Shown: positions 1,802 through 62,531 of the stretch, piece by piece | Layout: each line of letters begins with the position of its first letter | How positions within the stretch are numbered: position 1 is the stretch's first letter | NCBI GenBank assembly: GCA_963922205.1 | Contig: CAWUHX010000168.1 | Location: forward strand, 201,501 to 265,500 | Direction of reading: 5' to 3' | DNA from: Romanomermis culicivorax | Lineage: Eukaryota; Nematoda; Enoplea; Mermithida; Mermithidae | Length of the DNA stretch: 64,000 nucleotides | Translations under genes and position numbers: made by a program | Notes under the pieces: model-generated | Database searches by the model: none | Told to the model about the DNA's origin: nothing | What the model saw: the letters and a program-made list of their open reading frames with translations, nothing else

Positions 1802-22746
<20,945 letters not shown>

Positions 22747-29098: not shown

Positions 29099-29434
29099 TT
29101 TAAAAATCTTTTTCGATGTATAATAAGAAAAAAAATTTAACAACACGAAAAACAAAATAGGCCGCGCGAAAAATGGGAAAAACCAACAATAAATTGTATA
29201 CATAAAGCCAAATTTTAATAAATAGACATTTTTTTCGAAAATAAATAATTTTAATTTTAAAAATTTAAATTTTCAAAATTTGAGTTCTAAAATTTTCAAA
29301 ATTCAAATTTCAAGATTTTTAAAATTTAAATTCTAAAATATTTAAAATGCAAATTTCAAATTTATTAAAATTTAAATTTCAAAACTTTCAAAAATTAAAT
29401 TTTAAAATTTTCAAAATTTAAATTTTTAAAATTT

Positions 29435-29613
29435 CATGATTCTTGGTTATTATTGTTGTATAATCGTTTAATTTGGTCGTCGGGTGGTTGGCGAAAATTT
29501 TCCATTCGCCACATTTGGCCGGCAGTTTCGCTATTGCAAGGTTTCAAAAATAATTCGCTATTCAATAATAATTCCAGGCATAAATTTGTGTTGGCCCGTC
29601 GAAATTGTTTGGT
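29435..29613 (-). CDS. GALNT1: GALNT exon 14, third lectin repeat and stop
   Basis: Residues 591-649. NTNLCLELL and GQMWRMEN form the gamma repeat, followed by a short polar, Asn-rich tail. The TGA is read near 29435; the terminal Asn codons are in a repetitive ATT run, so the exact last residues are less sure than the rest. Confidence 0.88.
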
Positions 29614-32600
29614 CTGAGATGGAAAAAAATTTTTTAAATTTAATTTGAAAAAAAAATTTAAAAAAATTTAATTTAAAAAAAAAATTTTTTAAAATTTCAT
29701 TTAAAAATAAATTTTTTAAATTCAATTTTTGGAAAAAATTGAAAATTTCACAAAAAAACAAGCAGAAAAATTCAAAAAAATTTATAAAAATTCAATTTGA
29801 GAAAATTTTAAAGAATTTAATTTTCAAAAAAATTTAAAAAAATTTATAAAAATTTAATTTGGAAAAAATCATAAAAAATTTAATTAAAAAAAAATTTACA
29901 AAAAATCCAGAATTTTACAGAAAAATTTCAAGTCTCTTATTTTCAAAACTTTCGAACAGGAAATTTTAGTTTTTTTTCAATTACAAAATTTTTTGTTCGA
30001 AATTTTTAAAAAAATCGAAATTTCAAATTATTTTAACGCGAAAAAATTAAATTTTTTTCCAATAAAAATAATAAAAAAAATTAAATTAAAAAAAATGTAA
30101 AAAACAAAAAATTTCAATTTTTACTCTTTTTGATACATTTTCTATATTTTTTGCACCAAAAATTTTTTTCCGAAAATTTCACAACTTTTTGCATTACCTT
30201 TTTAAAAAAAATTATTACAAAGAATCCAAATTTCAATTTTTTTTCGAAAAAAATGTAAATTTTCCCCATCAAAAACTTTTTTTTTGTGCAGGAAAGGTTT
30301 AAAAAATTGAATTTTCAAAAAATGAAAAATAAAAATTAAACAAATTCCAATTTTTTTAAAATTACATTATTACAATTTTTTACATTTTTTGATAAGAAAT
30401 ATACCCAAAAATGTCAAAATTTCAAACTTATTTTCAGAAAAAATTTAATTTTTTTAAAATAAAAATAAAACACAAAAAATCAAATTTGGAAACAATTTAT
30501 ACAAAAATTCAATAAAAAAAATTATAACACTATTTGTAAAAAATTTAATTTTGGAAAAAATGATAAAAAATTTATTTTTCAAAAAAATTTTATGAAAAAT
30601 TTAATTCAGAAAAATTAATTAAAAATTTAAATTCAATTTAAAAAAATAAAACTCACATAAGAAATTAAATTTCAAAAAAAATTTATTAAAAACACATAAG
30701 TTTACAGGAAAAAAAAGAAAAAAATAAATTTTATTTTTTTTCAAAATTACATTTTATCCAATTTTTTACAGTTTTTTAATGAAAAATATATACAAAAATA
30801 CGAAAAATTTTGAATTTTGATTTGAAAATATTTTAACTTTAAAAAGAAAAATTGACACAAAAAATTAAATTTTAGAGAAATTTATGAAAAAGTACAAAAT
30901 TTTAGAAAAAGGTTAATTAATTTTTTTTGAAATTTTTGAAAAAAATTTAAAATTTCAAAATTTTTCTGCAAAAAAATTAAAAAAAATTATTTTCTTACAC
31001 TCAAATCGTATTGCCATCTTTGATTCGAACCGGATTTTGTGCAAGTTTTCATTTTTATTTGTTTTTGCTCATTATTTTCTTCGTGCTCCAAACATAAATC
31101 ATCCGATCTAATTTCGCCTATACCCGTAAAACTCCAAGCCTAAAAAAATTAAATTAATTTTTTTAAATTAAAATTTAAAATTTCAAAAAAAAATTCAAAA
31201 AAACAACAAAATTTACAAAAACTAAACAAAATTTTTTAAAAATATGAAATAAAAATAAAGAAAAAAACCAAATTTTCAGGAAAAACAAAAATAAACAAGA
31301 AAATTTAGAAAAAATAAAGAAATAAAAAAATCTAAAATGTGAGAAAAAAGTGTAAAAAACAAAAAAAACAAGAAAAAGCAAAAAAAACAAGAAAAGAAAC
31401 ATGTAGAAAGGTTTGGTAAAAAACAGAAAAAGTTGAAAAATCTAAAAAATCCAAAAAATAGAACAAATTAATACAAAAGTCGTGTAAAAAACCCCAAAAA
31501 AGTATATAAAAGTAAACAATAGAAAAATGGAAAACATAAAAAATTGGAAAGTAATCAAAAATTAAAGCCAAAAGTACAGAAAAAATGAAGAATGTATGAG
31601 AAAAAAGTTAAAAAAGAATTAAAAAGAATAAAAACCCATAAAAGTGAAAAAATGAACAAAGTCTAAACAAAGAATATACAAAAAGTAAAAAAATCAAAAA
31701 AACAAAAGAAAAATGTGAAAAAATCTGAAAAAAATCAAAAAAGTGAAACTGCAAAAAAAATTGGAAAAATGTAAAAAACGCAAAAAAACTGTAAAAAGTC
31801 GTAAAAGAAAAAATCTGAAAAAATTCGGAAAAGTTGAAAAAAATCGAAAGAAAGAAAAAGAAAAGCGTAGAAAAGTTTAAAAAAAGCAAAAAAATCTAAA
31901 AAACAGCTTAAAAGCAAAAAAAGTTTAAAAAAAGATAAAAAAGTGTAGAAAGAGGCAAAAAAAAATGTTAAAAATTTCAAAAAACAAAAATAATCTAAAA
32001 ATAAAATAGTAAAAGAAAAAGTTGAAAAAAACAAAAAGTACAAAATTGAAAAAAAAGAAAAACGGGAAAAAAGATCGAAAAAGTTTTAAAAAAGTGGAAA
32101 AAAGCTAAAAAAAAGTATTAGAAATGTGAAAAAAGAAAGGAGAAAAATATTTCAAAAAGAAAAAAGTGTGGAAAAATGAGAAACGAAAAAAAGAATAGTG
32201 TAGAAAAATGAAAAAAGTGAAGCAAAGATGTGAGAAAAATTCAACAAAGAAGACAAAAAAATGGGAAAAAACAAAAAGTAAAACAAGAAAGAAATGTGAA
32301 AAAACAGGAAAAACTAGGATATCAAAGAAATAGCTGAAAAAATTTAGAAAAAAACCAAAAAAAGGGAAGAAAAAACAAAAAAAAAAAGTTACAAAAAACC
32401 CAAAAAACGTAAATCGTCCGCTCCAATTTCGTCTATACCTGTAAAACTCCAGGCATAGAAAAATTTAATTTTTTTTGAAATTTAAAATTTCAAAAAAGTG
32501 TAAAAATTAAAAAAAATTACAAAACAAAAAAAACAAAAACATTCAGAAAAAACTGAACAAAAATAAAAAAAACAAACTAAAAATGTGAGAAAAGAGTGTA

Positions 32601-35600
32601 AAAAAACAAAAAAGCAAGAAAAAGGTAAAAAACAAAAAAGTGGAAAAAAGTTTAGTAAAAAAAGGAAAAAGTAGAAAAAATGTAAAAAAGCTAAAAAAAT
32701 AGAAGAGAAAATCAGAAAAAGTATAGAAAGATAACAAAAATGTGTAAAAAACATCAAAAATAGAAAAAAATATGAAAAAGTAAACGATAGAAAAATCGAA
32801 AAAGTAAAAAAAATTACAGGAAAAATACAACAAAAACTTAAGGAAATAAAAGGAATAAGTAAAAAAGATTGAAAAATGTAAAAAATCAATGAAAGTCAAA
32901 AAATGTAAAAAATAACACGTCGAAAAAAGGAAAAAGAAAAGTGTAGAAAAAACTAAGAAAAATTAAAGTGCAAAAAAGTAAAAACTTTAGAAAAACGAGA
33001 AAAAATCGAGAAAAAACGCCAAAAAAATGTAGAAAAATCAAAAATGTTCAAAAAATAGAAAAAAAAGAAAAATGAAAAGTGTAGAAAAATCCAAAAAAGT
33101 AAAAGTGCAATAAAATCTAGAAAAACGAAAAAAACAAAAAAAAACAAAAAAAATGCAAAAAGTAAAAGAAAAAGTGTGAAAAAGTTAAAAAATTGAAAAA
33201 ATATACAGAAAAGTGTAGAAAAAAGCCATAGAATTAATATTTTTCGAAAAAATAAAAAAGTTAGAAAAATTGAAAAAAGCGCAAAAAACAGAAAAAAGTA
33301 AAAGAAAATGTGCATAAATGATCGAAATCGTAAAAGAAAAAAACTGAAAAAAAGAAAGAAGTGTAGAAAAAAATGAAAAAAGTTCAAAAAGGCGGAAAAA
33401 ATAAAAAAAGTGTAAAAAAATGCAAAAAATCAAAAAAGAAGAAAAGCGTAAAAAAAGACATGAAAAAGTGACAGAAAATTGTAAAAAAGCTTAAAAAATT
33501 TAGAAACGTGAAAAAAATAAAGAAAAATGTTTGAAAAAAGGGAAAAATTTAAAAAAGTGTAGAAAAATGAGAAAAGAAAAGTAAAAAAGGAAAAAGTAGA
33601 ACAAGGAAAAAATATAACAAAATCAAAAAGTGAAAAAAATGTGAGAAAAATTCAAAAAGGTACAAAAAATGAAAAAAATGAAAAATGAAAAATAAGAGAG
33701 AAAGAAACTCGAAATTGTAGAAAAAAAGACTGCTGGAAGCAGAAAAAAAGAGGAAAAAAGATTAAAAAATAAAATATTTAAGGGAAGAGTAAAAAAAAAC
33801 AAAAACTACAAAAAACAACCAAAAAAAGAAAATAAAACAAAAAAAAAAAGAAAATAGTTAAAAAAAACCCAAAAATTCTAACCTGATTTCCGCCCAAACC
33901 GTGACAAGCGGACGCCATGGCCGGATTATCCGTTTTTTTGCCCATCGTATCGATACACATGTCCATTTTAGGCGAATCCAACGAAGTTTTAATCTGAAAA
34001 ATTTACAAAAAAATAAAAAAAATTTTACAATAAAAAAAAATAATTTTTTTAATTTTAATTCGAAATTTTGAAGAAAATTTTTTTTTAAATTTCACAATTT
34101 TTAAAGCAAATTTGCATAAAATTTGGGCTTTTCCCCATGAAAAATGGCGAAAATTGGAAAAATTTTACAATTGAAAAAAATTTCAGGAAAATAAATCAAT
34201 TATAAAAATTGGAAAATTTTTTTAACTTTACTTTTTTTGTAAAATTTTAAATCGAAATTTTGAAGTTTTATGGAAAAAAATTTTTTTTGTCGAAAATTTT
34301 AAAATTTTTGCTGCCAATTCGCATAAAATTTAAATTTTTTTCCATTACAAAAAATTGCAAAAATTGAACAAATTCAACAATTACAAAAAATAACAATAAG
34401 TTTAAAAAAAAATTTCCTTTTTTAGTAAAATTTTGAAATTTCCTGAAAAAATTTTTTTCTGAAAATTTCACAATTTTTAAAGCAAATTTGCATAAAATTT
34501 GGGCTTTTCTCCATGAAAAATGGCAAAAATTGGAAAAATTCTACAATAAAAAAAAAATTACTGAAAAATAAATCAATTATGAAAATTGGGAAATTTTTTT
34601 AACCATTTTTTTTTGTAAAATTGTAATTCGAAATTTTGAAATTTTATGAAAAAATTTTTTTTGTCAATTTGCATAAAATTTAGATTATTTTTCATTACAA
34701 AAAATTGCAAAAATTGAACAAATTTAACAATTACAAAAAATAATAATAAATTAAAAAAATTTTTTACTTTTTTTTGGTAAAATTTTGAAATTTCCTGAAA
34801 AAATTTTTTTTTCCAAATTTGACAATTTTTATAGTAAATTTTCATAAAATTGGTTATTTTCCATTAAAAAACTAATAATTAAAAAATTTTTTTCAATTTT
34901 TTTGTATGAGAAATTTTTCTTTCAATTTTCTCAATTAAATTTTATTTTTTTGTAAAACTTTAATGCAAAATTTTGAAATTTTATCAAAAAATTTTTTTCT
35001 CGAAATTTTCAATATTTTTGCAGCAAATTTGCATGAAATTTAGGTTTTTTTTTTAAATTAAAAATTGTAAAAATTTCAAAATTAGAAAAAAATGATTTTT
35101 TCACAAAAATTTAAATTTTTTTACAAAATTTCTAATTTTATTATGGTAAAATTTTTCGAAATTTTAAAAAGTTTTCAAAAAGAATTTTTTTTTGAAATTT
35201 TCCTGAAAATTTTTTAATTTTTTTTGTTAAAATTTAATGCAAAATTTTGAAACTTTTTTTGAAAAAAAATTTTTTTTGAAAATTTTAATATTTTTGCAGC
35301 AAATTTGCATAAAATTTTTTTGAAAAAAATACCTCTCCGAGCGAAAAATAATTTTCCGGAATTAAGGCTTCTTTGTACACATTTTCCAAATACCATTTAA
35401 AAGGTTTACAATTCAATTTTTGGCGTAAAGCTTTCCTTTCCGAGAGATCACCGATATCGATATTGCGGGCATCTGTAGAAAAAAATTATTCAAATAAAAA
35501 AATTTAAATTTAAAAAATTGTTGAATTTTAAATTTAAAAATTTTTGAATTTAAATTTTTATAAATTTTTGTTTCCAATTAAATTTTTTTTTTTAAATTCA

Positions 35601-41600: not shown

Positions 41601-44600
41601 TGGAAAATTGTCGAACTTTCGATACAAAATTCTTGAAATTATTTAAATTTTGCATCAAAAAAACGACAAAATTTTGAATAAATTTCAAAAATTCGTCCGA
41701 TTTTTGAGCAAGAAACGACGAAATTTTTAAAGAAATTTCGAAAATTTGACCAATTTTCAACCAGAAATATTCTCGAATTTTGAAAAGTTTTTCAAAATTT
41801 TCGACCAAAACCGGGTGAAATTTTAAAATTTTAATGAAAAATTTATTGATTATACTCAAATTTTAAAAATTTCTCAAAATTTCAATTGCAAATTCAGAAA
41901 AAATTTGGAAATTCGACAGATTTTCAATCAAAAAACACAAAACATTTTGAAGAAATTTGGGAAATAATTCAAATTTTCCATCAAAAAACGATAAAATTTT
42001 GGACAAATTTCGCGAAATTCGACGAATTTTAGATAAAAAACACCAAAGAAATTTCCGAAATTTGTCGAATTTTGGAGCAAAAAATTCCAAAATTTTGAAG
42101 AAATTTCACAACTCTGTCAAATTTTCGATCAGAAAAATACAGAATTCACAGGAAATTTCGAAAATTTGTCGAATTTTCCATAAGAAAAATAGCAAAATCT
42201 TAAAAAAAATTTCGAAAACTTTTCAATTTTGCATCAAAAAACTCCAACATTATGAAAAATTTGGAAAAATTGACGAATTTTTAAGAAAAAAATGTGATAA
42301 ATTTCAAAGAAATTCTGAAAATTTAACGAATTTTCAACTAAAAAAACTGGTAAATTTTTGGGAAAATTTCGAAAATTTCAAGGAATTTTCACGAAAAATT
42401 GGTTGATTCGACCAAAATTTGGAGAATATCTCAGAATTTGGACCGAAAAATTCTGAAATTTGACCAATTTTTAATCAAAAAAAGCTAAAATTCTAGAGAA
42501 ATTGCGGGAATTATTCGAATTTTCAAGCAGAATTTGCGCAATTTTTGGAAAATCTTTTTTCGAATTTTCTATTAAAAAATGACGAAATTTCAAAAATTTG
42601 TAGAATTTCCAACGGAAAATTATCAAATTTTGCGAAAAATTTATGCAATTTTCGATCAAAAAACACCAATATTTTGAAGAAATTTCGCTTAATTTAAGGA
42701 ATTTTCAACAAAAAAATTTTGAAATTTGCTAGAAATTCAAAAATAAATTTAAAAACAACAAAATTCTGAACAAATTTTTGATTTTTTTTTTTAAATCAAA
42801 TTTCCAAAAATTTCTACGTTTTTTTCCAAATTCGGAAATTAAATGTTGGAATTTTGTAAATATGACGAATTCTCCAACGGAAAATTCGCCAAATTTTTCG
42901 GAAATTTCAATCAGGAAAAGTTGAAAATTTCAAAATTTTGTGGAATTTTCGCTCAAAAAACGACAAATTTTCAATAAATTTCAGAAAATCTCACAGAATT
43001 TTTTCAAATCTGACAAATTTTCAAAAAAATGACTGAATTTACTAGAAAATTTTAGAATTTGTCGGATTTTCGGTCAAAAAAACCGAACATTCGACGTTTT
43101 TTCCAACGAAAAATAATTAGAATTCACCAAAAAATTCAAAGTCCTCGAAAATTTGACGAATTTTCGATCAAAAAATACCAAAATTCAGCAAAAAATTTCC
43201 AAAAATTCCATAAGAAAAGAGAATAAAATTTGGAAATTTCAATAAAAATTTGAGAATTTCTCAAAATTTCGACTAAAAATCTTTAAAATTTCACGAATTT
43301 TCTACCAAAAAAAGCTTGTAAATTTAGCGAAAATTTCTGAGAACAGGCAAAAAATCGAGTAATTTTTAAAAATTCGAAGATTAAAATTTTTTTTTCTTGA
43401 AATTCAACTCACTTCATAGGTTCCGAACGATCGTTATTCCGCCTTTCCAATTCCCTTTTCGGCGCCGGATACCAACGGAAATTCATGTGCCAGTTGAACC
43501 CTCCTAAAAAAATCCAGAATTTAAAATTCTAAAATAAAAAAAAAAATTTAAAATTCTAAAATTTAAAGAAAAATTGAAAATTTTAGAATTTCAAAAAAAT
43601 TAAAAATCTTACATTTAACAAAAAATTGAAAATTTTAGAATTTCAAAAAAATTCAAAATTTCACAATTTTCAAAAAATTTGAAATTCTTGAATTCAAAAA
43701 AAAAAAATAGAATTCCAATCTTAAGCCTACCCCAAGTCATGTCCGAAGCTGAAACGTATTGAAACGAATCGTCCGATATAACGTCGATTATAGGAGCAAT
43801 AATAGTTGTTCTGAAAAAAGAAAGAAAATTTGGGCGAATTTCCAAAATTTTGCGTATTTTCCACTAAAAAATGGTTAAATTTGAAAAAAATTCGCAAAAA
43901 AAGACGAATTTTCGACAAAAAAATGACTGAATTCTAACAAAAATTCGAAATTCTAATCATTTCCAGGGTAGAAATTTCTAAAATTTAGAAAAAATGCCAA
44001 AAAACGGATTTTCGACAAAAAATAAAGAAATTTGAAAGAAAAAGTAGAAAATTTAACAATTTTTACGCTAAAATTCTCAAAATTTAGCCGAAATTTTAGA
44101 ATTTTCAATAAAAAATGTCAAAATTTAGAAAGAATTTTACTAAACTGCGCTTAATTTTTCACCAAAAAATGCTTAAATTTAGGAAAAATTCCCCAAAAAA
44201 AACACGAATTTTCCACAAAAAATGACAGAATTCTAACGAAAATTCGAAAATCAAATCATTTTCAGGGTAGAAATTTCTAAAATTTAGAAAAAATGGCAAA
44301 AAAACGGATTTTCGACAAAAAATAAGAAAATTTGAAAGAAAAAGTAGAAAATTTAACAATTTTTACGCTAAAATTTTCAAAATTTAGGAGAAATTTTCAA
44401 AAAAATTTCAAAAAAAAAAATTTTCAAAAGTCAAAAAAACTTTCCTTTTTTCTTTTTCTTTTTTTCTACTCACTTATTTTCATAAATCTTGGACCTCGAA
44501 GGTTCTTTTTTCTGAATTTTTAGCAAAAATTTGATTTTTTCAAGTCTAAAATTGAGAAAAATTCAAAAAAATAAAAAATTTGCTGCTTTCTATGTAGAGA

Positions 44601-47600
44601 AATTGAAATTTTAGCAGAATATTTCTAAAAAAATCAAATTTCAAAATTTTTTAGATTTTTCAGCAAAAAATTTGATTTTTTTGAATTTTTTCATATTAAG
44701 GAAAATTTGGAAAAAATTCAAGAATTTGCAGGTTTTTATAGCAAAAAAATTAAAATTTACGAAAAATAATGAACAAAAAGGAAAATTTAATGTTTTTTCT
44801 GCATTTATTGAAAAAAATAATTTTTAGACTCTAAATTTGAGAAAAATAAAAAAAATTCGAAAATTTGATGCTTTTCGTAGAAAAAATAATAAAATATTGA
44901 GGAAAATGTAAAAAAAAACAAAATTTAATGTTTTTTTCGAAATTTTTTTTAAAAAATTCAATTTTTCCGAATTTAAAACTAGAAAAATCCGTAAAATTGA
45001 CGTTTTTTACGAAAAAAATTAAAATTTAAGAAAAATTGTAACCAAAAAGCAAAAATCTAAAATTTTTTTTTTGTAAAAAAATTTGATTTTTCCGATTCTA
45101 AAATTATGAAAAATGTGAAAAAATTGACAATTTCTGCTTTTTACACGAAAAATAACTAAAATATAACCAAAATTGAAAAATTTAAACTTTTATTTAAAAT
45201 ATTTTTTGAAAAAATGTGATTTTTGCGAATCGACAAAAATTACAAATTTGATGATTTTTTTAGGAAAAAATGATTAAAAATTTCATAAAAAATTATGAAC
45301 AAAAAACAAAAAAAATTTTTTGGCATTTTTTTCCAAAAAAATCGAGAAAAATATATAAAAATTTGCAAATTTTCTACTTTTTAGGCTAAAAATTAATGGA
45401 AAATTTGGTTCAAATTTTGAAAATTTAACAAATTTTCAATCAAAAGACGTCGAAATTTCGAAAAAAAATTTAAAAACAATGATAAATTTGAGGCGACTTT
45501 TTCAAAAATTTTACAACAAAAAATGACAAAATTTCCAAATTTTGTCGAATTTTCGTTGGAAAACTCGAAAATTTGAAAAAAAAGTTTTTTTCAATAAAAA
45601 AGGCCAAATTCGAAAAAATTGAAAAAATTTAAAAAATAAATTTTTTTTATTTTTTTCCATTTTTCTCACCTATTTTCATAAATTCTGGCCATCAAAGGTT
45701 CCAACCAACCGACGGTCACTTCGATATGAGCGTCCAAAAAGGTCAAGGTCGGTCCTTGGGCGATTTTGGCGCCGGTTAACCGGGCCCGGATCAAACCCGA
45801 CCTGTTGGCCAAATGAATTATTTCCACGGGGACGGGTAAACTTTCGACGTAACGATCGAGCGGATTTTTTAAATAATCTTAATTTTAATTTAAAAAATTT
45901 AAATTAAAAAAATTTAAATTAAAAAAATTTAAATTAAAAAAAAAATTAAATTAAAAAAAATTCAAATTTAAAAATGTAAAAATAAAATTTTTGAAAAAAA
46001 TTAAAAAAAATAAAAAAAAAATTGAAAAATTAAAAAATGTGAAAAATTGAACAAAAATGTAGAAAAAATTAAACGACACAGGAAAAAATTGAACACAAAC
46101 ATAAAAAAAATTCAATCAAAATGTAGAAAAATAAAAACAAAAAAGTGTAAAAAAATTGAACGAAAATGTAAAAAAATAGAACAAAAAATGCTAAAATTAA
46201 ACAGAAGAGAAAAAAATTGAACAAAATTTTAGAAACTTAATCGAAAAATGTTGAAAAATTCAACAAAAATGTAAAAATTTAAACAAAAAATGTAAAATTG
46301 AAAAAAATTCAAAAACTTGAACAAAAATATCGAAATATTGAACAAAAATGTAAAAAAAATTAACAAAAAAATGTATGATTCGAAAAAAAATCAAAAATTT
46401 AAACAAAAAATGGCAAAAAAATTTAACAAAATTGTGGAAAATTGACAAAAATTGTGAAAAAAAATGGACAAAATAGTAAAAAATTGAATAAAAAATGCAA
46501 AAACTTTGAAAAAAATGAACAAAATTAGACAAAAATGTGAAAATTTAAACAACATGTGAAAAAATCGAAAAAAAAAAGTTTAAACAAAAATGCATAAAAA
46601 TTGCACCGAAAATGTAAAAAATTGAACAAAAAATGTAAAAAATCTCGCAAAACATCTAAAAAAAGACAAACAATGTAAAAAATTTGGATAAAAATGCAAA
46701 AAATTAGGACAAAAATTGGCTAAAAACGGTAAAAATTGAAAAAATGTCAACATTTGAACAAAAAAGGTAAAAAAATTCACAAAAATGTAAAAGTTTGAAC
46801 AAAAATGTGGAAAATTTGTAAAAAATGCAAAAATTTACACAAAAATTCGAGAAAAAAAATGCAGAAAATTTGAACAAAAACAGAAAAAAATTGAACAAAA
46901 AGTGTAGAAAAGTGAAAAAAAATGTAAAATGTAGAAAATTTAACGAAAATTGTAAAAAAAAAACAAAAAAAAAACCCAGAAAATTGAATAAAAACTGTAC
47001 ACAACTGAGCAAATTATGTAAAAATTTCAATGGAAAAAATCCAGATATAACAAAAAAAGCAAAGAAAATTTAATTAAAAAGGCGGAGAAATGGTTAAAAA
47101 ATGTAAAAAATGAATTAAAAACTTGAAAAAATTGAAAATGATTGAATGGAAACAAAAAAAAAATTTGGACGAAAAGTTAAAAAATTTGAATGAAAATTAA
47201 TAAAATTGAATAAAAAAATGTAAAAAAATCAACAAAAAGCTTGAAAAACTCAAAAAAATGTAAAAAAAATTCCAGGAAAAATGTAGAAAATGCAACTAAA
47301 AATCCAAAAATTAGAATAAAAAGTTTACAAAATTAAACATATAATGTAAAGAATTGAAAAAAAACATCAAAATTGAACAAAAAGAAAGTAAAGAAAATTC
47401 AATAAAAATTTGAAGACTTGGATGGAATAAGTAAAAAAATGAAAAAAATAATTTAAAAAATGGGGCAAAGTTGAGAAAATTTTTTCAAAAATTTGAATAA
47501 AAGTATCAAAAATTTATCAAATAATGCAAAAAATTGAATAAAAAAATTAAAATAAGAAAAAACCGTAAAAAAGCCAAATGTATTATTTCCACGGGGACGG

Positions 47601-50600
47601 GTGAACGAGCGGATTTTTTAAATAATCTAAATTTTAATTTAAAAATTTAAATTTAAACAAAATTTTAAATTAAAATATTAAAACTAAAAATGTAAAAATT
47701 TGAACAGAAAAAAAAGAAAAAAAATGTTTCAAAAATGTTGAATTTGAACAAAAATCTTAAAAAAATTTAACGAAAAATGTGAAAAATTGCACGAAAATGT
47801 AAACAAATGAAACAAAAATGTAAAAAATGGAACAAAAAACGTGAAAAATGCAAAAAAATAACGAAAATTTTTTCACAAAAATATAAAATTGAACAAAAGA
47901 TTTAGAAAATTCGGAAAATATAAAAAATGTTCACAAAAAAAAATGCAAAGAAAATAAACAGAAAATCCTAAAATTAAAAGTCAATGTAAAAAATTGAAAA
48001 AAATGTAAAAAAATGAACGAAAAATTTAGAAAATTAGGAAAAATGTAAAAAATTGAAGAAAAAGTTTGACAAATGTAAAAATTCAACACAAAAATGTAAA
48101 AAAAATTAAGCAAAAAACATAAAACTCAACAAGATCTGTAAAAAATTTGAACAAATGTGAAAAATTAAAAAAAAAATTAAAAAAATTGAAGAAAACTGTA
48201 AAAATTTTAACAAAAAAAAATTATGAGAAAAAATGTGAAAAATCAAACAGAAAATGTAAAACAAATGTGAAAATTGAAAAAATTTAAAAATTTGAACAAA
48301 AAGTGAGAAAAAAAGGAAAAAATGTGAGAAATTGAACAAAAATCTTAAAAAATTGAACAGAAAAAGACAAATTTACAAAAAATGTAAAAAAGTGGAGAAA
48401 AAATCCAAAAACTTAAAAAAAATATAAACTAAAAAATTAATGAAAAAATTCTAGCGGAAAAAAATTAAAATTGAGAAAAATTCTTTTGAAAATTTAATAT
48501 AAAACATAAAAAATTGAATAAAATTCACAAAAATGAAAGAAAAAAGAAAAAATTTTTAAGTGGAAAATCTAAAAAATTGAAGGAAAAATGAAAAAAAATA
48601 ACAAATTCAATTTAAAAAACTGAAATTAAAAAAATTATAAATAAAAAATTTAAAAAGAAAACTTGAAAAATTCAAAAAGGAGTGAGAAAAATGACTACAA
48701 TAACAAAAATTGAATTAAAGAAAAAGAAATTTCAATAATAAAATCGCAACAATCTGGAAAAAAGTGTAGAAAATTGAACAAAAATTTAATAAAAAAAGTT
48801 GAAAATTGAACAAAAAAAAAATGAACAAAAAATTAATAAAAAATGTTGAAAATTAAGCAAAAAAATAAAAATAAACAAAAAATTTAATAAAAAGTGAAAA
48901 AGCACTAACAAAAAATCAATGAAAAGTTTAAAAAATAAAAAAAATTGAAGAAATGAAGAATAAGTTAAAAATTGCACGAAAAATGTAAAAAATTGAACAA
49001 AAAAAGAGAAAAAAGGGAAAAAATGTGAAAATTTATCAAAAAATGTGAGAAAATGAACAAAAATCTTAAAAAATCGAACAGAAAAGGACAAATTTACAAA
49101 AAATGTAAAAAGTGAAGAAAAAATCCAAAAACTTAAAAAAGAATATAAACCGAAAAATTAATGCAAAAATTCTAGCGGAAAAAAAATTAAAATTGAGAAA
49201 AATTTTTTTGAAAATTTAATATAAAACATGAAAAATTGAATAAAATTCACAAAAATGAAAGACAAAAGAAAAGTGAAAAATCTAAAAATTTGAAGGAAAA
49301 ATAAAAAAAATTGAAAAAAAATAATAAATTCAATTTGAAAAACTGAAATTAAAAAAATTATAAATAAAAAAATTTAGAAAAAAACTTGAAAAATTCAGAA
49401 AAAAAGTGAGAAAAATGACTACAATAACAAAATTGAATTAAAAAAAAAAGAAATTTCAATAATAAAATCGCAATAATCTGGAAAAAGTGTAGAAAATTGA
49501 ACAAAAAAGATTAACAAAAAAATGAATGAAAAGTGAAAAAGCACAAAACGAAAAATCAAAAAAAATAAAAAAAACAAAAAAATTGAAGAAATGAAAAATA
49601 AGTCAAAATTTGCACGAAAAATGTAAAAAATTGAACAAAACGTACAAACAATTCTAGAAAAAAAAAATAAAAAATGGAACTGAAAATAGAAAAAAAATTG
49701 AATAAAAAGTTTGCAAATTGAAAAAATAATGTAAAATATTGAATTGGAAAAAAAGCAAACTTGAACAAAAAAGTGAAGAAATTCAATAAAAAAAGTAAAA
49801 TTAAAAAAAATTAAATTGAAAATAATATGATAAATTTTGAAAAAATCTAGAAATTCAAGTGAAAGAATAAAAAATATGACAAATAATGCAAAAAATTCAA
49901 TTAAAAAAAAGAAAAAAATAATAAAAATTTTAAAGAAGTGTGAAAAATTAAAAAAAAAATTTAAAATTTAAAAATAAAAAATTTTATACACAGAAAAATC
50001 CAAAAATTACCCCTATCACTTGCGTCATCGACGAGAATAATTTCCTAAAAATCAGAGAAAAAAAATTTACATGAAAAATATGCAAATTTTTTTTTTTCAA
50101 ATTTTAAAATTTAAATATACTTTCAAAAGATCGGGCGGCGTACGATTAATCACCGAATGTAAAGTTCTCAATAAAGTGGACCACGCTTCGTTATGAAAAA
50201 CGATAATCACCGAAGTTGAAGGTAAATTTTCCGGATAAACTTTAGTTCGACATCTGAGAAAAAAAATTTGAAAAAATTGAAAAACAAACAAAAAAAAATA
50301 TCGAAAAATTAAAAAAGTAGAAAAATAATTTGAAAAACAAAAAAAAAATTAGGAAAAATTACAAAGAAGGAAAAAATGATATAGGAAAAAAATGTGAAAA
50401 AGAGAAATAAAACAAAAAAAGATTTGAAAAATCAAAAAAGAAGACAAAATTGAAAGAAATAAGAAAAAAATTAAAAAAACAAAAACTAGAAAAGGAAATC
50501 ATCACAAAAAAATTTTCGGAAATAAGAACAGAAAAAACAGCAAGATAAAAATTGTAAAAATAAAAAGACAACTGTAAAAAATAAAAAATTAAAAATTAAA

Positions 50601-53600
50601 AAAATTAAAAGAAACACAAAAAATAAAAATGGAAAAAAACAAAAAAATTAGAAAAAATGCGGAAAAAAGACAAAAAAAAGAAAAAACACCAATCAAAAAA
50701 TCAAAATTAAAAAAATTCAGAAAAACCAGAAATGGAAGAAACAATGTAAAAAGTTGGAAAAAGCTCGAAAAAAGGCAAAATTCAAGAACTAAAAAACGGA
50801 AAAATCAGGAAATTTAAAGAAAAAACAAAAAAAAGTTGGAAAAAAAACTAAAAAATTGGAAAAAAGGCACAAAAAAACAGAAAAAATTGGACAAAAAGAA
50901 AAAACAAAAAAATTTAAAAAAATTACAAAAAAAGATTTGAAAAATCAGAAAAGAAGACAAAATTAAAAGAAATAAGAAAAAGATTAAAGAAACAAAAACT
51001 AGAAAAGGAAATCATTACAAAAAAATTTTTGAAAAAAAGAACAGAAAAAACAGCAAGATAAAAATTGTAAAAAAAGACAACTGTAAAAAATAAAGACTTA
51101 GAAATTAAAAATTAAAAAAGACAAAAATTAAAAATGGAAAAAAAACAAAAAAATTAGAAAAAATGCGGAAAAAAGACAAAAATAAGAAAAAACAATAATC
51201 AAAAAACCAAAATTAAAAAAAGTCAGAAAAACCAGAAATGGAAGAAACAATGTAAAAAGTTGGAAAAAGCTCGAAAAAAGGCAAAATTCAAAAACTAAAA
51301 AACGGAAAAATCAGGAAATTTAAAGAAAAAACACAAAAAAAGTTGAAAAAAACTAAAAAATTGGAAAAAAGGCACAAAAAAACACAGAAAAAATTGGGTA
51401 AAAACAGAAACAAAAAATGAAAAACAAAAAAAAAGAAAAAAAAATTAAAAAAAAAATTTTGACTCACTTTTTAAGCCTCACATAGGGCAAACTACAAACT
51501 ACTATGAAAAAACAGAGACTAATAAAAGGAAGAAAGAAAAAAGAACAAAAAAGTAAAGAAAGATAAAAATAGAAAAGAAGGAAAAAATTGCTCGAAAAAA
51601 GACAAAAGAAGAAAAAGTTAAATACTAAAAAATAGAAAAACCAGGAAAATGAAAAAGAAGGAAAACAAATTTAAGCAAACAAAAAAAAACAAAAAGGTTA
51701 TTAAAAAAAAAACAAAAAATTTGGAAAAAAATACAGAAAGAAACAGACAAAAAATTGAAAAAACAAAAATTAAAAAAAAAATCAGAAAAAACAAGAAAGA
51801 AGCACAAAAATAAATTTGACACACTTCTTAAGCCTCAGTAAGGAAAAAAACAAAAAATTGATGAGAAAACAAAAAAAACGAGAAAAAAATTGCGAAAAGG
51901 GACGAAAAAACAAGAAAAAATGACACAAAACAAAGCAAAAAAAAAGAATGAAAAAAAGAAAGAATAGAGAAGAGAAGAAAAATGAAAAAAAAGAAAAAAA
52001 CGAAAAAATTGCTAAAAGCTCAAAGAAAAGAAAAAACCAGAAACTAGAAGAAGGGAAAATCAAAAAAATAGAAAAAAAGGAAAAAAATTAAAAAGAAGGA
52101 AAAAACAAAAACTTGGATGAAAAAAACGAGAAAAATTGAAAAAACTTAAAAACCAAACAAAAATTAGAAAGAGGGAAAAATTGAGAAAACAGAATGTAAA
52201 AGTGAAAAAATGAAAAAAACGGAGGAAAAATAAAGAAAAAAATTGGAAAAAACACAACAAAAATAGAAACAAATTGTAAAAAAGACAAAAATACAAAGAG
52301 GAAAATTGAAAGAAAAAATAAAAAATGAAGAAAAATATATAGATATATAGAAAAACAGAGAGAAAAAATGGGCGAAAACAGAAACAAAAAAAAATAAAAA
52401 ACAAGAATTTAAAAAAAAAAACCAAAAAAAATATACGAAAAAAACAGAGAAAAAATTGGGCGAAAATAGAAACCAAGAAAATTTAAAAAAATAAAAAAAA
52501 CAAATCAGAAAAGAAATAAAAAAAAATTTTGACTCACTTTTTAAGCCTCACATCGGGCAAACTACGATTTATTGATATTAAATCGGAAGCCATAACATTG
52601 AATTGATTTTCTTTGAAACGTTCCTTCATTTCGGCTTGGCTTTCCGGGCCGAAAGTCACGCCTTCGCCCGCTTCGCCCGGCCCGTTCGGATCCGAACCGA
52701 AATTCAAACCTAGAAAGAAAAAAAAAACCCATTCAAAATTGCATATTTTTCGAAAAATCTTTTTTTTTTTGTTTTTTTATCTTTTTTGGGCTTTTTGGTG
52801 TTTTTTCTACTTTTTTTTGTTTTTTTTGCTCCTGTTATTTCTTTTTGTCTTTTTCTACTTTTGCTTTTCTTTCTTTTCTAGTTTTGCTTTTCGGAAAGGA
52901 AACTTGAGCCTAGAAAGAACAAAAAAGGTAATTTTCGCCTTTTTGTTTTTTTCTTTTGTTTTTTGCTTCATTGCTTTTTTGTTTGTTTTTGCTTTTGCTT
53001 GTTTTTTCGCCTTTTTTGCTTTTTCTTTTCTAATTTTCTATTTTCTAATTTTCATCTGTTTAGCTTGCTTTTTTTCTGTTTCACTAGCTTTTTTGTTTTC
53101 TTTCTTTTCCCTTTTTATTAACTTTCTTCCGCTTTTTTGCTTTTTTTTGTTTGCTTTTTTGCTTTTCGTCTTTTTGCGTTTTTTCTGCTCTTTTTTCTTT
53201 GTATTTTCCCTGTTTTGTTTTTTATTTTTATGTTTTTTCTGTTTTTTGTTCTTTCTCTTCCTTTTGCTTTTTTCGTTTTTGTTTTTCTGATTTTTTTCTG
53301 CTTTTTCTTTTGTTTGTTTCTTTTTTTGTTTTTATTAACTTTTTTCCTCTTTTTTTGCTTTTTTAATTGTTTTTGTTTTCCTGCTTTTGTTTTTTTTCTT
53401 TTTTGACCTTTTGCAAGTAAGTTTTTTGCTTCTGTTTTTTTCTTTTTTTGCTTTATATTTCCCTTGCATCATTCTTTCTTTTATTTTTTTTTGCTTTTTT
53501 TCTGTTTCACTAGCTTTTTAGTTTTCCTTCTTTATTGTTTTTATTAACTTTCTTCCGCTTTTTTGCTTCTTTTTGTTTGCTTTTTTGATTTTCGTCTTTT

Positions 53601-56600
53601 TGCGTTTTTTCTACTCTTTTTTCTTTGTATTTTCCCTGTTTTGTTTTTTATTTTTATGTTTTTTTCTGCTTTTTTTCTTTCTTTTCCTTTTGCTTTTTTC
53701 GTTTTTGTTTTTCTGATTTTTCTTTCGTTTCGTTTCTTTTTTTTATTAACTTTTTTTTCTTTTTTTGCTTCTTTTATTTGTTTTTTTTCAATTGTTCTTG
53801 TTTTTCAAGTTTCAATTTTTTTCTTTTTGGACCTTTTTTAAGTAAGTTTTTTTTGCTTCTGTTTTTTTTCTTTTTTGCTCTCTATTTTTTCTTTTGTTTC
53901 CCTTACATCATTCCTTCTTTTATTTTTTTTGCTTTTGCTTTTTCTTTCGTTTTGTATTGTTTTTTTCGCCTTTTTCCGTTTTTTGTTTTTGCTTTTCTTC
54001 CCTTTTTCTTTTACTTTTTTTGCTTCTTTCTGTTTTTGATTTTTTATTTTTTGGCTGTTTCTCTGTTTTTATGCTTTTTCTCTCTTTTTTCTTTCTTTTT
54101 TTAATTTTTTTGTTTCCTTTCTTTTTTGTTTTTTGCTTCTCTTCTTTGTTTTATTGTTTATTTCTTTGATCGGGATCCGAAGCGAAATTTAAGCCTAGAA
54201 AAAAGCAAAAACCGTTCAAAAATGCATATTTTCCGGCAAACTTTATTTTTTTTGTTTTTTATCTTTCTTTTTTATAATTTTTTCTATTCTTCAGCTTTTT
54301 TTCATTTCGTTCTTTTTTTTCAATTTTTCCGTTGTTCTTTTCTTCATTTTTGCTTTTGTTTTCCTTATTTCTTTTTTTGTTTGTTTTTTTGCTTTTTTTA
54401 CAGTTCCATTTTGCTTTGTGTTTTTTGTTTTTTTGACTGCTTTTCTTCCTTTTTTTCTGTTTTTTGCTTTTGCTTCCTTTTTCTTCTAATTTTTTTTCTA
54501 TTTTTTCGCTTTTTGGTTTTTTTGTTCTGGTTTTTTCATGTTACTGTTTATTTTGTGTTCTTTTGTTTTCTTCTTTTTACTGCCTTTTTCGCATTTGTCG
54601 GCATTTTTGATTTTGCTTATTTCTTTTTTCTTCGTTGTTTTTTGATTTTTCGCGCATGCTTTTTTTTTCTTTTTTTAAATCTTTTTTGTTTTTTTCGTTT
54701 ATGGTTGTTTCTTTTTCGCTTTTCGTTTTCTTTTTTCCGTTTTTTTGCGTTTCCTGCCTTTTTTTGCCTTTTCTCTTCCTTTTTGTTGTGTTTTTTCTTA
54801 TTTTTTTCTTTTTTGTTTTTTTTCTGCTTTCTTCTTTTTTTTGTTTTTTACTTTTGTTGAATTTGCTTTTTTTCCTACTTTTTTCTTTTTGATTTTTTTT
54901 CTGTTTATTTTTTTTGTTTGTTTTAGATTTCGCTTTTTCTTACATTTTAAAATTTTTCCTTTTCTTTTTATGCTTTCTTTTTTTTCTTTTGCGGCGTTTT
55001 TTCTTTTTTTTTAAATTTTTAATAAAATTTAACCAAAAAGTTGAAAAATGTTTTTTTTTCGCAGAATTTTCCCTAAAATCTAATCCAAAATTCTAAATTT
55101 TCAAAATTTTGGATATTTTTCAATAAAGATTGACCGAAAAGTTGAATTTTCCTCTCAAAAAATCAATTTTTCCGAATTTTTTTGTGGAAATTCTCCACAA
55201 AATTTTGAAATTTACAAAGTTTTTGATGAAATTTAATGAAAAACTCGAATTTTTCGCACTAAAAAAACTTTTTCCCAGCAAAATTTTGCTCAATTCTTCA
55301 TGGAATTTTTCGAAAAAGTTGAAAATTCCACAGAGTTGTTTTTGCGATTTTTTTTAAATTTAAGCCAAAATTCCGAATTTTTAAAGTTTTTGATGAAATT
55401 TGACAGAAAAATTTATGTTGTGTGCTTTTTTCTCCAAAATTTTGCATAATGTTCAATGAAATTTAATCAAAAGTTGAATTTTCTTCTCAAAAAATGCTTA
55501 TTTTCGCTGAATTTTTCATGAAATTTAAGCAATTTTTTCGAATTTTTGATTGATTCTCCATAAAATTCAACGAAAATTCCGAATTTTTTTCTTCCTTTGG
55601 GTTTTTCTGTTTGTTTTCTTTTTTTGTTTGTTTTTGCTTTTTCTTACATTTTTAACTTTTTCTTTTTTTTGGTTCGGTTTTATCAATGTTTTTAAAAGTT
55701 TTCCCGTTTTTTTTGCTTTCGCCTTTTTTTTGTTGTTTTTCTTGCTTTTTTGCTTTTCGTTTTTGTTTGTGTTTTTTTGTGTTTTTTTTGCTTCTCAATT
55801 TTTTTTTGTTTTTTTCTGCTTTGGCTTTTTTCTCTTGTATTTTTTGCTTTTTACTTTTCGTTTGTTTGTTTTCTTTTCGGTTTTTGTTCTTTTGAATCCT
55901 GCCTTTTTGATTCAATTTGCGAATATTTGTTGATTTCCAGGCCGGAAAGTTCTCAAAAATTGTTGACATGTTCCAAACTTGACAAATTTTCAGCCGAAAA
56001 TTATCCCAATTATCAAAAATTCATGCAATTTTGGACCAAAAAACGACAAAATTTGGCAAAATTTGAACACTTTTCTGCGAGAAGTTGGAAAAATTTTAAG
56101 AACAAATTGGCAACTTTCCACCAAAAAACGACAAAATTTTGAATAAAATTTCGAAAATTTTAGCAATTTTCAGGCAAAAAAAGACAAAATTCGAGAGAAA
56201 TTTCAAAAATTTGACAAATTTTTAACGAAAAAAATGCCGAAATTTGCGGAAAATTGCGCAAATTAAAAGATTTTTAGGGGAAAAGGTATTAAAAATCGTT
56301 GAAATTTTCTAAATTCATTAAATTAATTGGCGAAAAATTGCCGAATATCAAGAATTCACGCCATTTTCAAGCAAAAAACCGCAAAACTCAGCGAAATTTG
56401 TACAATTTTTCCACAAAGAGTTGACAAATTTTGCAGAAAAATTCGCAAATTTATCTAATTTCGAACGAAAAAATGCCCAAATTTGCGAAAATTTTACAAT
56501 TTTAAGGCGAAAAATTAAGTAAATTTCTCGAATTTTCAGCAGAAAATCATCAAATTGACCGGGAATTTCGCTAAAGTTGACGATTTTCAAACGAAAAAAA

Positions 56601-57171
56601 CCGGTATTTGAACATTTTCAGCCAGATAAGGTCATAAAATTTACCGAAATTTGGTGAATTTGTCAACTTTTCAACGAAAAATGGACAAATTTGACACAAA
56701 ATTTCGAAAATTTATCCAATTTTCATACCAAAAAAACGGCAAAATGTAGCACTTTTCCGCGAAAAGTTGTCAAATTTTGCTAGAAAATCCCCAAATTTTC
56801 CGTCCAATACCTTTCATTAAACTGCCTAAAATCCCATCATAACCGGCTTCCGTCGCGGTTTTTCGTGTTTTCAACGACGAAATCCCTTCATTTTTTTCCA
56901 CTTGTTTAAAAAAGTCAGTCCTAGGAATTTTGACCAAATTTTGAAAACGTCGCGTGGTCGATTGACGATTTTTCAAATTTTCCTCCTCAAAAACGTCGCG
57001 TTTTTCGACGACGTTTTTTAAAAACGCCTCCGGCGGCTTTTGAGGAGGAGGAGGATAAACCGGTGAGCGATTACAATCCAAAAAATATAATAACAATAAA
57101 ACGACTAGCATAAACCAAAAAGCCGACGTTAATAAAACGATACGCCAAGTATCTAAGCGTCGAAAATTCAT
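29435..57171 (-). CDS. GALNT1: Polypeptide N-acetylgalactosaminyltransferase, GALNT1/13 type
   Basis: Type II Golgi membrane enzyme that moves GalNAc from UDP-GalNAc to Ser/Thr, starting mucin-type O-glycans. Fourteen exons in order: 57171-56811, 52709-52538, 50253-50121, 50044-50011, 45877-45670, 43810-43731, 43503-43413, 40185-40068, 38443-38309, 37386-37341, 35472-35333, 33993-33883, 31139-30999, 29613-29435 (the last few bases are uncertain by one). All are GT-AG with matching phases; about 649 aa. Signal anchor at 11-31, stem to about 170, GT-A catalytic domain (about 179-440) with [28 protein letters not shown] and SHVGHVFRK, then a ricin-type lectin domain with three QxW repeats (about 510-635). 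The stem-end (NQFNVMAS), catalytic and FSLGE sequences fit the GALNT1/GALNT13 branch, of which C. elegans gly-3 is the likely worm member. Introns range from 76 bp to 4.1 kb. Confidence 0.96.
29614..30998. other. GALNT intron 13, AT-rich
   Basis: Low-complexity A/T sequence with A runs on the + strand. No clear period, no second exon candidate. Confidence 0.7.
30999..31139 (-). CDS. GALNT1: GALNT exon 13, second lectin repeat
   Basis: Residues 544-590. [13 protein letters not shown] and [10 protein letters not shown] form the beta repeat; Glu replaces the Asp of a CLD motif. The donor used is GTAAGA after AGT, because an earlier GT would put exon 14 out of frame. A decayed copy of this exon's 5' edge lies at 32405-32470. 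Confidence 0.93.
31140..33882. repeat. GALNT intron 12, A-rich purine block
   Basis: Phrases such as AAAAAAGTGTAGAAAAATG and AAAAACAAAAAAG recur throughout; the + strand is almost free of runs of T. 32405-32470 holds a copy of the exon 13 edge. Long Phe/Leu-rich open frames here arise from composition. Confidence 0.8.
33883..33993 (-). CDS. GALNT1: GALNT exon 12, first lectin repeat
   Basis: Residues 507-543. Alpha repeat of the ricin-type domain: MCIDTMG keeps the Asp that binds GalNAc in active lectin repeats, and CHGLGGNQ joins AW from the next exon to make QAW. Confidence 0.95.
33994..37340. other. GALNT introns 11 and 10, with exon 11 between
   Basis: AT-rich. In intron 11 (33994-35332) a unit of about 300 bp repeats (GCATAAAATTTGGGCTTTTC near 34109 and 34489). 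Exon 11 is 35333-35472 ([20 protein letters not shown] then FSLGE). Intron 10 (35473-37340) repeats TACAAAAATCTAGAAATTTT and AAAATCACTCAAATTT. Confidence 0.75.
37387..38308. other. GALNT intron 9, T-rich block
   Basis: 37490-38065 is a T-rich pyrimidine block on the + strand, opposite in sense to the A-rich blocks on both sides. The remainder repeats CAAAAATTTAATAAATTTTTT. Exon 10 (37341-37386, [15 protein letters not shown]) lies just to its left. Confidence 0.75.
38309..38443 (-). CDS. GALNT1: GALNT exon 9, metal-binding histidine
   Basis: Residues 400-444, phase 0 at both ends. [20 protein letters not shown], where His417 matches the third metal ligand of the family, then the mobile loop [13 protein letters not shown]-rich exon in a very AT-rich setting. 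Confidence 0.97.
38444..43412. repeat. GALNT introns 8 and 7
   Basis: Both introns repeat a short unit close to GAAATTTGTCGAATTTTCG with an AAAAAACGACAAAATTTTG arm. In intron 8 (38444-40067) the sense is mostly AATTCGACAAATTTT; in intron 7 (40186-43412) it is mostly its reverse complement. No exon besides 40068-40185. Confidence 0.78.
40068..40185 (-). CDS. GALNT1: GALNT exon 8, Gal/GalNAc-T motif
   Basis: Residues 360-399. [16 protein letters not shown], then [19 protein letters not shown]383, W389, E392, N393 and E395 of the motif are kept. His387 stands where the closest vertebrate enzymes have Asp. Confidence 0.96.
43413..43810 (-). CDS. GALNT1: GALNT exons 7 (43413-43503) and 6 (43731-43810)
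   Basis: Exon 6 gives residues 303-329 ([20 protein letters not shown] then SASDMTW), exon 7 gives 330-359 ([20 protein letters not shown] then [10 protein letters not shown]). The intron between them (43504-43730) is 227 bp. Phases 1 and 2 join cleanly on both sides. Confidence 0.94.
43811..45669. repeat. GALNT intron 5
   Basis: AT-rich. A unit of about 300 bp is duplicated at 43975-44090 and 44270-44390 (GGTAGAAATTTCTAAAATTT). The rest repeats GAAAAAATTGAAATTTGATG-like phrases without a firm period. Confidence 0.7.
45670..45877 (-). CDS. GALNT1: GALNT exon 5, DxH motif
   Basis: Residues 234-302 plus two bases. The acceptor is a non-pyrimidine TTAAG that gives the in-frame start [11 protein letters not shown]. 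Holds the metal/UDP motif D282-A-H284 and E286. The two cysteines usual in this stretch (DAHCEC) are Ile285 and Val287. Ends [13 protein letters not shown]. Confidence 0.95.
45878..50010. repeat. GALNT intron 4, A-rich block with large duplications
   Basis: Short unit near AAAAATGTAAAAAATTGAAC throughout. Two stretches, about 48290-48770 and 49030-49500, are near copies about 720 bp apart (shared CCAAAAACTTAAAAAA and TTCTAGCGGAAAAA). 47571-47640 copies the exon 5 edge. Confidence 0.82.
50011..50044 (-). CDS. GALNT1: GALNT exon 4, 34-nt microexon
   Basis: Encodes [11 protein letters not shown] plus one base (residues 223-233). It carries the UDP-binding aspartate of the LVDDAS motif, so skipping it would disable the enzyme and shift the frame. 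Flanked by a 76-bp intron upstream and a 4.1-kb intron downstream; the donor is GTAATT. Confidence 0.95.
50121..50253 (-). CDS. GALNT1: GALNT exon 3, start of catalytic domain
   Basis: Residues 178-222: [20 protein letters not shown] then [20 protein letters not shown], the family's nucleotide-binding start with the E of HNEAWS. Ends in phase 0 before a 76-bp intron. Confidence 0.97.
50254..52537. repeat. GALNT intron 2, A-rich block with large duplications
   Basis: 50410-50830 and 50935-51340 are near copies about 510 bp apart (shared ACTAGAAAAGGAAATCAT and AGAAATGGAAGAAACAATG). 51471-51515 copies the donor edge of exon 2. + strand is A-rich throughout. Confidence 0.85.
52538..52709 (-). 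CDS. GALNT1: GALNT exon 2, end of stem
   Basis: Residues 121-177 plus two bases. Gly/Pro/Glu-rich start, then a conserved end: [20 protein letters not shown] followed by DVRLK. Donor GTGAGTC. Broken copies of both edges of this exon lie in the adjoining introns (51471-51515 and 54170-54250). Confidence 0.95.
52710..56810. repeat. GALNT intron 1, T-rich block then AT-rich tail
   Basis: 52740-55020 and 55590-55900 are T-rich with TTTTTTGCTTTTT phrases. 53110-53310 and 53540-53740 are near copies about 430 bp apart. 54170-54250 copies the acceptor edge of exon 2. From 55.9 to 56.8 kb the sequence is AT-rich with TTTTCAGC and AAAACGACAAAATTT phrases. Confidence 0.82.
56811..57171 (-). CDS. GALNT1: GALNT exon 1, signal anchor and stem
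   Basis: Residues 1-120 plus one base. Short basic cytosolic tail (RRLDTWR), hydrophobic anchor 11-31 ending YFLDCN, then a Pro-rich and Lys/Glu-rich stem. ATG at 57171 chosen because the tail and anchor match the family's length. Upstream, TTTCTTATTTTAG ends at 57203 and is a possible 5'-UTR or spliced-leader acceptor. Confidence 0.92.
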
Positions 57172-60251: not shown

Positions 60252-60284
60252 AATTTTTTTTTTGAGGACACCTTTTTTTTTGAT

Positions 60285-61780: not shown

Positions 61781-61854
61781 CAAAAACCCAAAAAACCTAG
61801 AAAATCTACAAAAAAGGTTTATCAAACAAATAAATAACCAAAAAACCCCAATTT

Positions 61855-62510: not shown

Positions 62511-62531
62511 ATTTGTTGACGCTGAAAAAAA
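62511..62531 (-). promoter_or_regulatory. Candidate spliced-leader or 5'-UTR acceptor of ARPC5
   Basis: TTTTTTTCAG ends at 62522 in the gene's sense, 11 nt before the ATG at 62510. A strong acceptor this close to a start codon, with no upstream coding exon, is typical of trans-splicing in nematodes. An ordinary 5'-UTR intron would look the same. Confidence 0.5.

Follow-up and report, generated by a model that had tools for sequence, protein, structure and literature searches.

Intron lengthening is usually attributed to mobile elements or to anonymous insertions. Tandem duplication is recognised as one way in which introns are gained (PMC3443670), and in the Rogers model an intron is gained through the tandem duplication of an exon piece that bears AGGT (PMC3443670, PMC4974935). 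The closest described case is a potato RdRp gene, for which a tandem genomic duplication across an intron-exon boundary and, separately, a purely intronic one of 83 bp in intron 1 are reported (PMC4974935). Tandem duplications formed by polymerase theta in the helq-1 mutant of C. elegans range from about 100 bp to 10 kb with a median of about 1 kb (PMC8654963), and those of the brc-1 mutant are described as mostly larger, about 10-20 kb (PMC7368036).

Here we analyse a gene in which copies of exon edges lie within the introns. An earlier note on this DNA held that there was no standard description of such a pattern; however, tandem duplication across an intron-exon boundary has been published for the potato gene (PMC4974935). 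Our literature search found no description of exon-edge fossils, or of several scars per gene, as a record of intron lengthening.

The GalNAc-transferase gene and its predicted model

The studied stretch is a single minus-strand gene for a polypeptide GalNAc-transferase, and its coding piece matches GalNAc-transferases. It lies in a window of 64 kb, by which we mean the whole stretch of DNA that was analysed, taken from an assembly of 359 Mb. Fourteen joined exons (numbered 1-14, with introns 1-13) give one open frame of 649 amino acids with the domains Glycos_transf_2 and Ricin_B_lectin. The exon borders were chosen by eye at GT/AG sites, guided by vertebrate GALNT1, and the result is a predicted model; the edge copies contribute no exon to this model of 649 amino acids and 13 introns. 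The coordinates of all features are collected in the table.

On the coding strand, T predominates strongly in introns 2, 4 and 12, with a plus-strand AT skew of 0.48-0.62 (32001-34000 and 46001-52000), and intron 1 is A-rich (AT skew -0.30 to -0.55 at 52001-56000). A genome search with the end of intron 12, which is low-complexity DNA, gave at least 133 matches, the window's own included. An Rfam search gave no match in the 64-kb window.

Table. Features of the GalNAc-transferase gene and of the second locus, L005 (positions are those of the window unless stated otherwise)
Feature	Position	Strand	Basis and remarks
Exon 1, GalNAc-transferase gene	56811..57171	-	gene model
Exon 2, both edges copied	52538..52709	-	gene model
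Exon 3	50121..50253	-	gene model
Exon 4, 34 nt	50011..50044	-	gene model; closes the reading frame
Exon 5, 5' edge copied, 3' edge probably copied	45670..45877	-	gene model
Exon 12	33883..33993	-	gene model
Exon 13	30999..31139	-	gene model
Exon 14, last	29434..29613	-	gene model
Copy of exon 2 5' edge, intron 1	54168..54194	-	22/26 aligned exon nt; about 1.48 kb away
Copy of exon 2 3' edge with donor, intron 2	51468..51495	-	35/36 nt (by eye); 1070 bp away
Donor GTGAGT beside the exon 2 3' copy	51467-51462	-	unchanged
Copy of exon 5 5' edge, intron 4	47573..47626	-	52/54 nt (by eye), 16-bp gap; 1749 bp away
Weaker copy of exon 5 3' edge, intron 5	44475..44505	-	26/31 nt; about 1.2 kb away
Copy of exon 13 5' edge, intron 12	32405..32454	-	43/50 nt; 1.31 kb away
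First unit, intron 12 tandem duplication	32405..33833	-	blastn pair of 31090-32414; looser alignment starts at 33897
Second unit, ending 50 nt inside exon 13	31090..32414	-	blastn pair of 32405-33833
Repeat-only tandem duplication, intron 1	52960..54004	-	offset about 426-444 bp; 91.5% identity without gaps
Repeat-only tandem duplication, intron 2	50386..51462	-	offset about 505-522 bp; 94.8% identity without gaps
Repeat-only tandem duplication, intron 4	47990..49715	-	offset about 722 bp (739-812 at alignment ends); 92.6% identity without gaps
Repeat-only tandem duplication, intron 5	43809..44576	-	offset about 300 bp (293-326 at ends); 86.1% identity without gaps; clear at about 44360-43825 by eye
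Repeat-only tandem duplication, intron 11	34031..34897	-	offset about 350-377 bp; 90.6% identity without gaps
NLE1-like exon, L005	410-613	-	L005 coordinates
Copy of its 5' edge, L005	1743-1803	-	L005 coordinates

Exon-edge copies in the adjacent introns

Four edges, the 5' and 3' edges of exon 2 and the 5' edges of exons 5 and 13, have firm copies, and the 3' edge of exon 5 has a weaker fifth one. The earlier note had described four clear copies, each in the intron next to the copied exon and on the side of the copied edge, at distances of 1.0 to 1.8 kb. It left them unnamed, but the four clear copies found here match its distances, and its description holds, with all of them on the same strand and 1.07-1.75 kb away. 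A scan along the gene, in which the best partner elsewhere in the gene was sought for each 150-bp window, placed every strong edge partner in the adjacent intron, at offsets of about 1475-1490 bp for exon 2 5', 1070 bp for exon 2 3', 1749-1753 bp for exon 5 5', 1196 bp for exon 5 3' and 1307-1313 bp for exon 13 5'.

All five copies take in the splice junction. Their homology ends after 26-70 nt on the exon side, where AT-rich DNA follows, and in the exon 2 5' copy it extends about 60 bp on the intron side. The state of the copied splice sites varies: the acceptor AG has become AT in the intron 12 copy and is intact in the copies of exon 2 5' and exon 5 5', the latter of which lacks 16 bp, and in the exon 2 3' copy the donor and the first intron letters are unchanged.

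Scored with 60-nt pieces of exon letters only, the copies reach 187 (exon 13 5'), 171 (exon 5 5'), 150 (exon 2 3'), 110 (exon 5 3') and 84 (exon 2 5'), and for all five the adjacent intron scores higher than any other intron on either strand. When exon letters alone were compared with the adjacent intron under dinucleotide shuffling, the scores of exon 13 5', exon 5 5', exon 2 3' and exon 5 3' were reached by 0 of 200 shuffles and that of exon 2 5' by 1 of 200. A junction test took 25 nt of exon together with 35 nt of intron and compared them with the adjacent intron and with 200 block shuffles; it covered 22 of the 26 edges, introns 3 and 6 being too short. A comparison of exon edges with their own and with shuffled introns had been proposed, for the whole genome, as a check of the pattern; in the GalNAc-transferase gene, six of the 22 edges exceeded all 200 block shuffles, where about 0.1 would be expected. 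These six are the five copies and exon 12 3', which is marginal (131 against a shuffle maximum of 127) and may represent the distal end of the unit in intron 12 described below. Four of the six beat the shuffle maximum 1.2-fold, and exon 5 3' and exon 12 3' fall short of this. With exon and intron parts taken together, four copies are firm, and exon 5 3' is likely a real fifth one.

The intron sides of the copies were also scored by distance from the junction. For exon 2 5' the homology is stronger than in every control over the 60 bp next to the junction, and for exon 13 5' over the nearest 100 bp; for the latter, the 100-400 bp interval exceeds all 145 controls when pooled, whereas its parts at 100-150, 150-220 and 220-300 bp do not do so singly. 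For exon 5 5', all controls are exceeded in the first 30 bp; at 30-60 bp its score is matched by 13 of 273 controls, and two intervals further out, 150-220 bp (0/253) and 300-400 bp (0/220), are again above all of them. For exon 2 3', all controls are exceeded at 0-30 bp and 60-100 bp (0/229 at the latter) but not at 30-60 bp. The intron side of exon 5 3' is marginal, with 2 of 246 controls at 0-30 bp and 0 of 216 at 60-100 bp.

Three further candidates were rejected as copies. The score of exon 1 3' (102) was reached by 2 of 200 shuffles and, in the junction test, by 32 of 200 block shuffles; the corresponding values for exon 8 5' (score 90) were 3 and 80 of 200, and a piece inside exon 11 (score 126) was reached by 3 of 300 block shuffles. 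Only two of the 29 exon-interior windows score at least 120, one being part of the exon 5 edge copy and the other the exon 11 piece.

Duplicated units within the introns

Intron 12 consists of two collinear copies of a unit of 1.3-1.4 kb that ends 50 nt inside exon 13. The units share 67% identity with gaps (blastn), or 80-85% of aligned letters when gaps are excluded, and the alignment contains 120 gap openings and 178 mismatches. In a window-order test the collinearity of the intron is high, with a Spearman rho of 0.82 against 0.23 as the largest of 25 controls. The exon 13 edge copy passes directly into sequence that resembles the first letters of intron 12, and the exon part (43/50) is worn to a degree similar to that of the whole unit (80-85%). 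The junction between the units, which is the sole readable one, carries a short T-run overlap. Because the whole unit is collinear, intron 12 did grow by tandem duplication across the border of exon 13.

Along the intron bodies that adjoin the other four copies, matching windows do not keep their order, with rho values of -0.09 (intron 2), 0.10 (intron 4), -0.53 (intron 1) and -0.05 (intron 5); the value for intron 1 is set against controls that are mostly T-rich and thus a poor match in composition for this A-rich intron. A rotation null was applied to nine body comparisons, and the real score was reached by 0-121 of 200 rotations (19 and 12 for intron 12), where it has to be considered that small rotations keep collinearity. 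In the 150-bp window scan, the windows of the first body of intron 2 had no partner above controls at the expected offset, with the exception of the edge itself.

The lack of order in introns 2 and 4 is most telling when it is set beside the age of their edge copies, which are the youngest of all. The 95% upper bound of divergence is 12.5% for exon 2 3' (1 of 36 letters changed) and 11.2% for exon 5 5' (2 of 54). When the bodies of introns 2 and 4 were duplicated as whole units in a simulation, with an indel model of our own that was set from gap counts in repeats of this gene, rho stayed at 0.87 or above at these bounds; in none of 24 runs did it drop to the observed value at any of eight divergences between 3 and 20%. 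A cruder earlier simulation, in which substitutions often preserved the letter and divergences were therefore too low, pointed in the same direction with lower values. As the edges are young, the bodies are non-collinear and simulated duplicates stay ordered, plain whole-unit tandem duplication is not a plausible fit for introns 2 and 4, unless selection kept the edge copies young-looking. The copies of exon 2 3' and exon 5 5' are better read as short blocks of about 50-130 bp that were locally copied or duplicated. Tandem duplication across exon borders, which the earlier note had proposed for the pattern as a whole, thus stands for intron 12 (rho 0.82) and is not supported as a single explanation, given the non-collinear bodies beside the other four copies; of these, the ones in introns 1 and 5 adjoin edges old enough for decay to have erased the order.

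Duplications that contain repeats only are present as well. Those of about 430, 510 and 720 bp that had been noticed before in introns 1, 2 and 4 were recovered at offsets of about 426, 505-513 and 722 bp, and the window scan added further ones of about 300 bp in intron 5 and 350-377 bp in intron 11. Measured from end to end of the alignments, the offsets are 440-444 bp in intron 1, 520-522 bp in intron 2 and 350-372 bp in intron 11.

Neighbouring genes and a second locus

The other genes of the window that were examined are a PHD gene (with a sub-threshold PHF12 match), ORMDL, ARPC5/p16-Arc and one encoding an unnamed protein. At the 24 approximate ends of their 12 coding segments, 0 copies were found with a threshold that passes three of the five known copies. 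ORMDL and ARPC5 (p16-Arc), assigned by Pfam, are neighbours at 57430-62560 on the minus strand, and repeats spaced about 173-208 bp occur around 57.8-61.7 kb. Long satellite arrays are found at 4938-6804 (unit of about 92 bp), 8937-10822 (about 116 bp), 11191-12240 (about 169 bp), 18799-20414 (about 31 bp) and 23938-26022 (about 31 bp). Several of these arrays lie between coding segments, which may form one minus-strand PHD-finger gene.

Eight loci were taken for their likeness to the T-rich end of intron 12, and six of them, of 3.2 kb each, lie outside the window; they are a T-rich choice and not a random sample. A scan of these six for repeated high-complexity pieces flagged four, and the edge-copy pattern is present in one of the six, L005. 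On inspection, the other flagged loci turned out to be weak (L003), an AT-rich repeat (L004) and a tandem array (L006). L005 belongs to another contig and contains a Notchless/NLE1-like exon whose 5' edge recurs 1190 bp upstream in the same intron, which is T-rich. A PDB match that covers all 68 residues (1-68, E 2.9e-59) identifies the exon, and five WD-40 repeat or designed proteins rank above that match. Over 72 nt the copy has 53 identical letters, 8 different ones and 11 gap letters (53/61 aligned), and the score of its first 60 nt was reached by 0 of 200 shuffles. As beside four of the copies in the GalNAc-transferase gene, the intron body is not collinear (rho -0.14).

Origin of the edge copies

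We think that the edge copies were probably left behind by small local duplications of an ordinary kind, in introns whose DNA is low in complexity and AT-rich, mostly T-rich. The copies are above chance, each of the five has its highest score in the intron that borders the copied edge, and the collinear intron 12, the repeat-only duplications and the second, independent gene in L005 point the same way; on the other hand, collinearity is absent beside four of the five and in L005, and the 24 ends in neighbouring genes yielded no copy. Stretches of a few hundred bp up to about 1.4 kb have been duplicated head to tail repeatedly in this gene, with examples in introns 1, 2, 4, 5, 11 and 12. Where such a stretch crosses a splice junction, as the sequence of intron 12 shows, the complete exon with its own junction would stay in use, and the inner copy, severed from the rest of the exon, would sit in the intron and presumably decay there as a fossil. 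Splicing likely uses the outer junction, since the joined exons give a single intact frame of 649 amino acids. In introns 2 and 4, a short piece of about 50-130 bp across the junction was probably placed about 1.1 and 1.75 kb away, respectively; alternatively, a short tandem duplication could have been split apart later by other DNA. As molecular route, an end-joining repair of the polymerase-theta type, acting on a broken and partly copied end, may be considered, and we count it in favour of such a local end-joining origin that the sizes of the helq-1 duplications fit those observed here.

The explanation nearest to this one, which extends that of the earlier note, is that all five copies stem from tandem duplication of whole units of 1.0-1.8 kb, whose low-complexity bodies have since turned over beyond recognition. 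It holds for intron 12, and the separate matches beyond the edge (150-220 and 300-400 bp for exon 5 5', 60-100 bp for exon 2 3') would agree with it. DNA of this kind gains and loses letters fast, as illustrated by intron 12, where 178 mismatches are accompanied by 120 gap openings, and the exon 2 5' and exon 5 3' edges are, at about 15% divergence, old enough for such a decay. Yet it is the youngest edges (35/36 and 52/54) that have non-collinear bodies, whereas the older intron 12 (43/50) is collinear; the first-body windows of intron 2 lack their partners at the expected offset, and simulated decay of up to 20% never led to the observed disorder in 24 runs. As an account of all five copies, we therefore consider it unlikely. 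Selection on some copies, which might serve as cassette or decoy exons, appears more doubtful still. With an upstream AG, the exon 2 3' copy forms a 51-nt piece (51468-51518, minus strand) that, traced by hand, is open in the frame of the gene, and a stop-free stretch of 68 amino acids (51467-51670) ends at this copy; its unchanged donor and first intron letters, and the AG kept in the copies of exon 2 5' and exon 5 5', could also be taken as signs of use. But T-rich DNA is open by composition, and the lost acceptor in intron 12, the 16-bp gap in intron 4 and the 11 letters missing in L005 speak against such a use.

An assembly artefact, in which two diverged haplotypes were joined head to tail, would be expected to give an identical layout, and our view rests on the assembled sequence. 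A working allele, however, is not expected to have a lost splice acceptor or frame-breaking gaps, as the inner copies do, nor an R in place of a cysteine of exon 13, which we take to be conserved, as the intron 12 copy does; furthermore, four of five bodies are non-collinear and the pattern occurs on two contigs, so that we regard this as very improbable. We give equally little weight to chance matches in low-complexity DNA as the general cause. Exon 5 3', and exon 2 5' when judged by exon letters alone, do come near the control range, and for exon 5 3' chance is possible. Exon 2 3', exon 5 5', exon 13 5' and L005 are far above every shuffle, though, and so is exon 2 5' above every one once its intron letters are included (192 against a shuffle maximum of 106). 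For five of the six copies, that is, all but exon 5 3' and with L005 included, chance is refuted.

A wider proposal can be put forward, albeit tentatively and with clearly less confidence than the reading for this gene. In this genome, introns with T-rich or A-rich tracts might lengthen through a succession of local duplications, commonly across splice junctions. A measurable share of exon edges (5 of 22 here) would then leave dated fossils in the next intron, partly as short junction-spanning blocks copied about 1-2 kb away and not in tandem. Because exon sequence is of high complexity and in part conserved, an edge fossil can reveal a local duplication that is invisible in low-complexity intron DNA. 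Should the share hold genome-wide, edge fossils could serve to count, date and size the events of intron lengthening and to test which repair route is responsible.

Relation to known systems

The helq-1 duplications (PMC8654963) resemble the edge copies in their size range. The junction microhomology and templated inserts of polymerase theta are unreadable in the old copies here, except for the T-run overlap of intron 12. With the Rogers model, the GalNAc-transferase gene shares the supply of splice-site copies by local tandem duplication; that model, however, deals with the gain of an intron, whereas here the splice-site copies lie inside introns and are apparently unused. The potato RdRp gene (PMC4974935) is similar in that a border-crossing duplication and an intronic tandem duplication occur in one gene. 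An intron was gained and an exon piece added there, while in the predicted model studied here the introns are longer, no exon is added and several scars are present. Measured against the literature covered here, individual cases of tandem duplication across a splice border are known, and the new aspect is the occurrence of several such scars in one gene together with longer introns.
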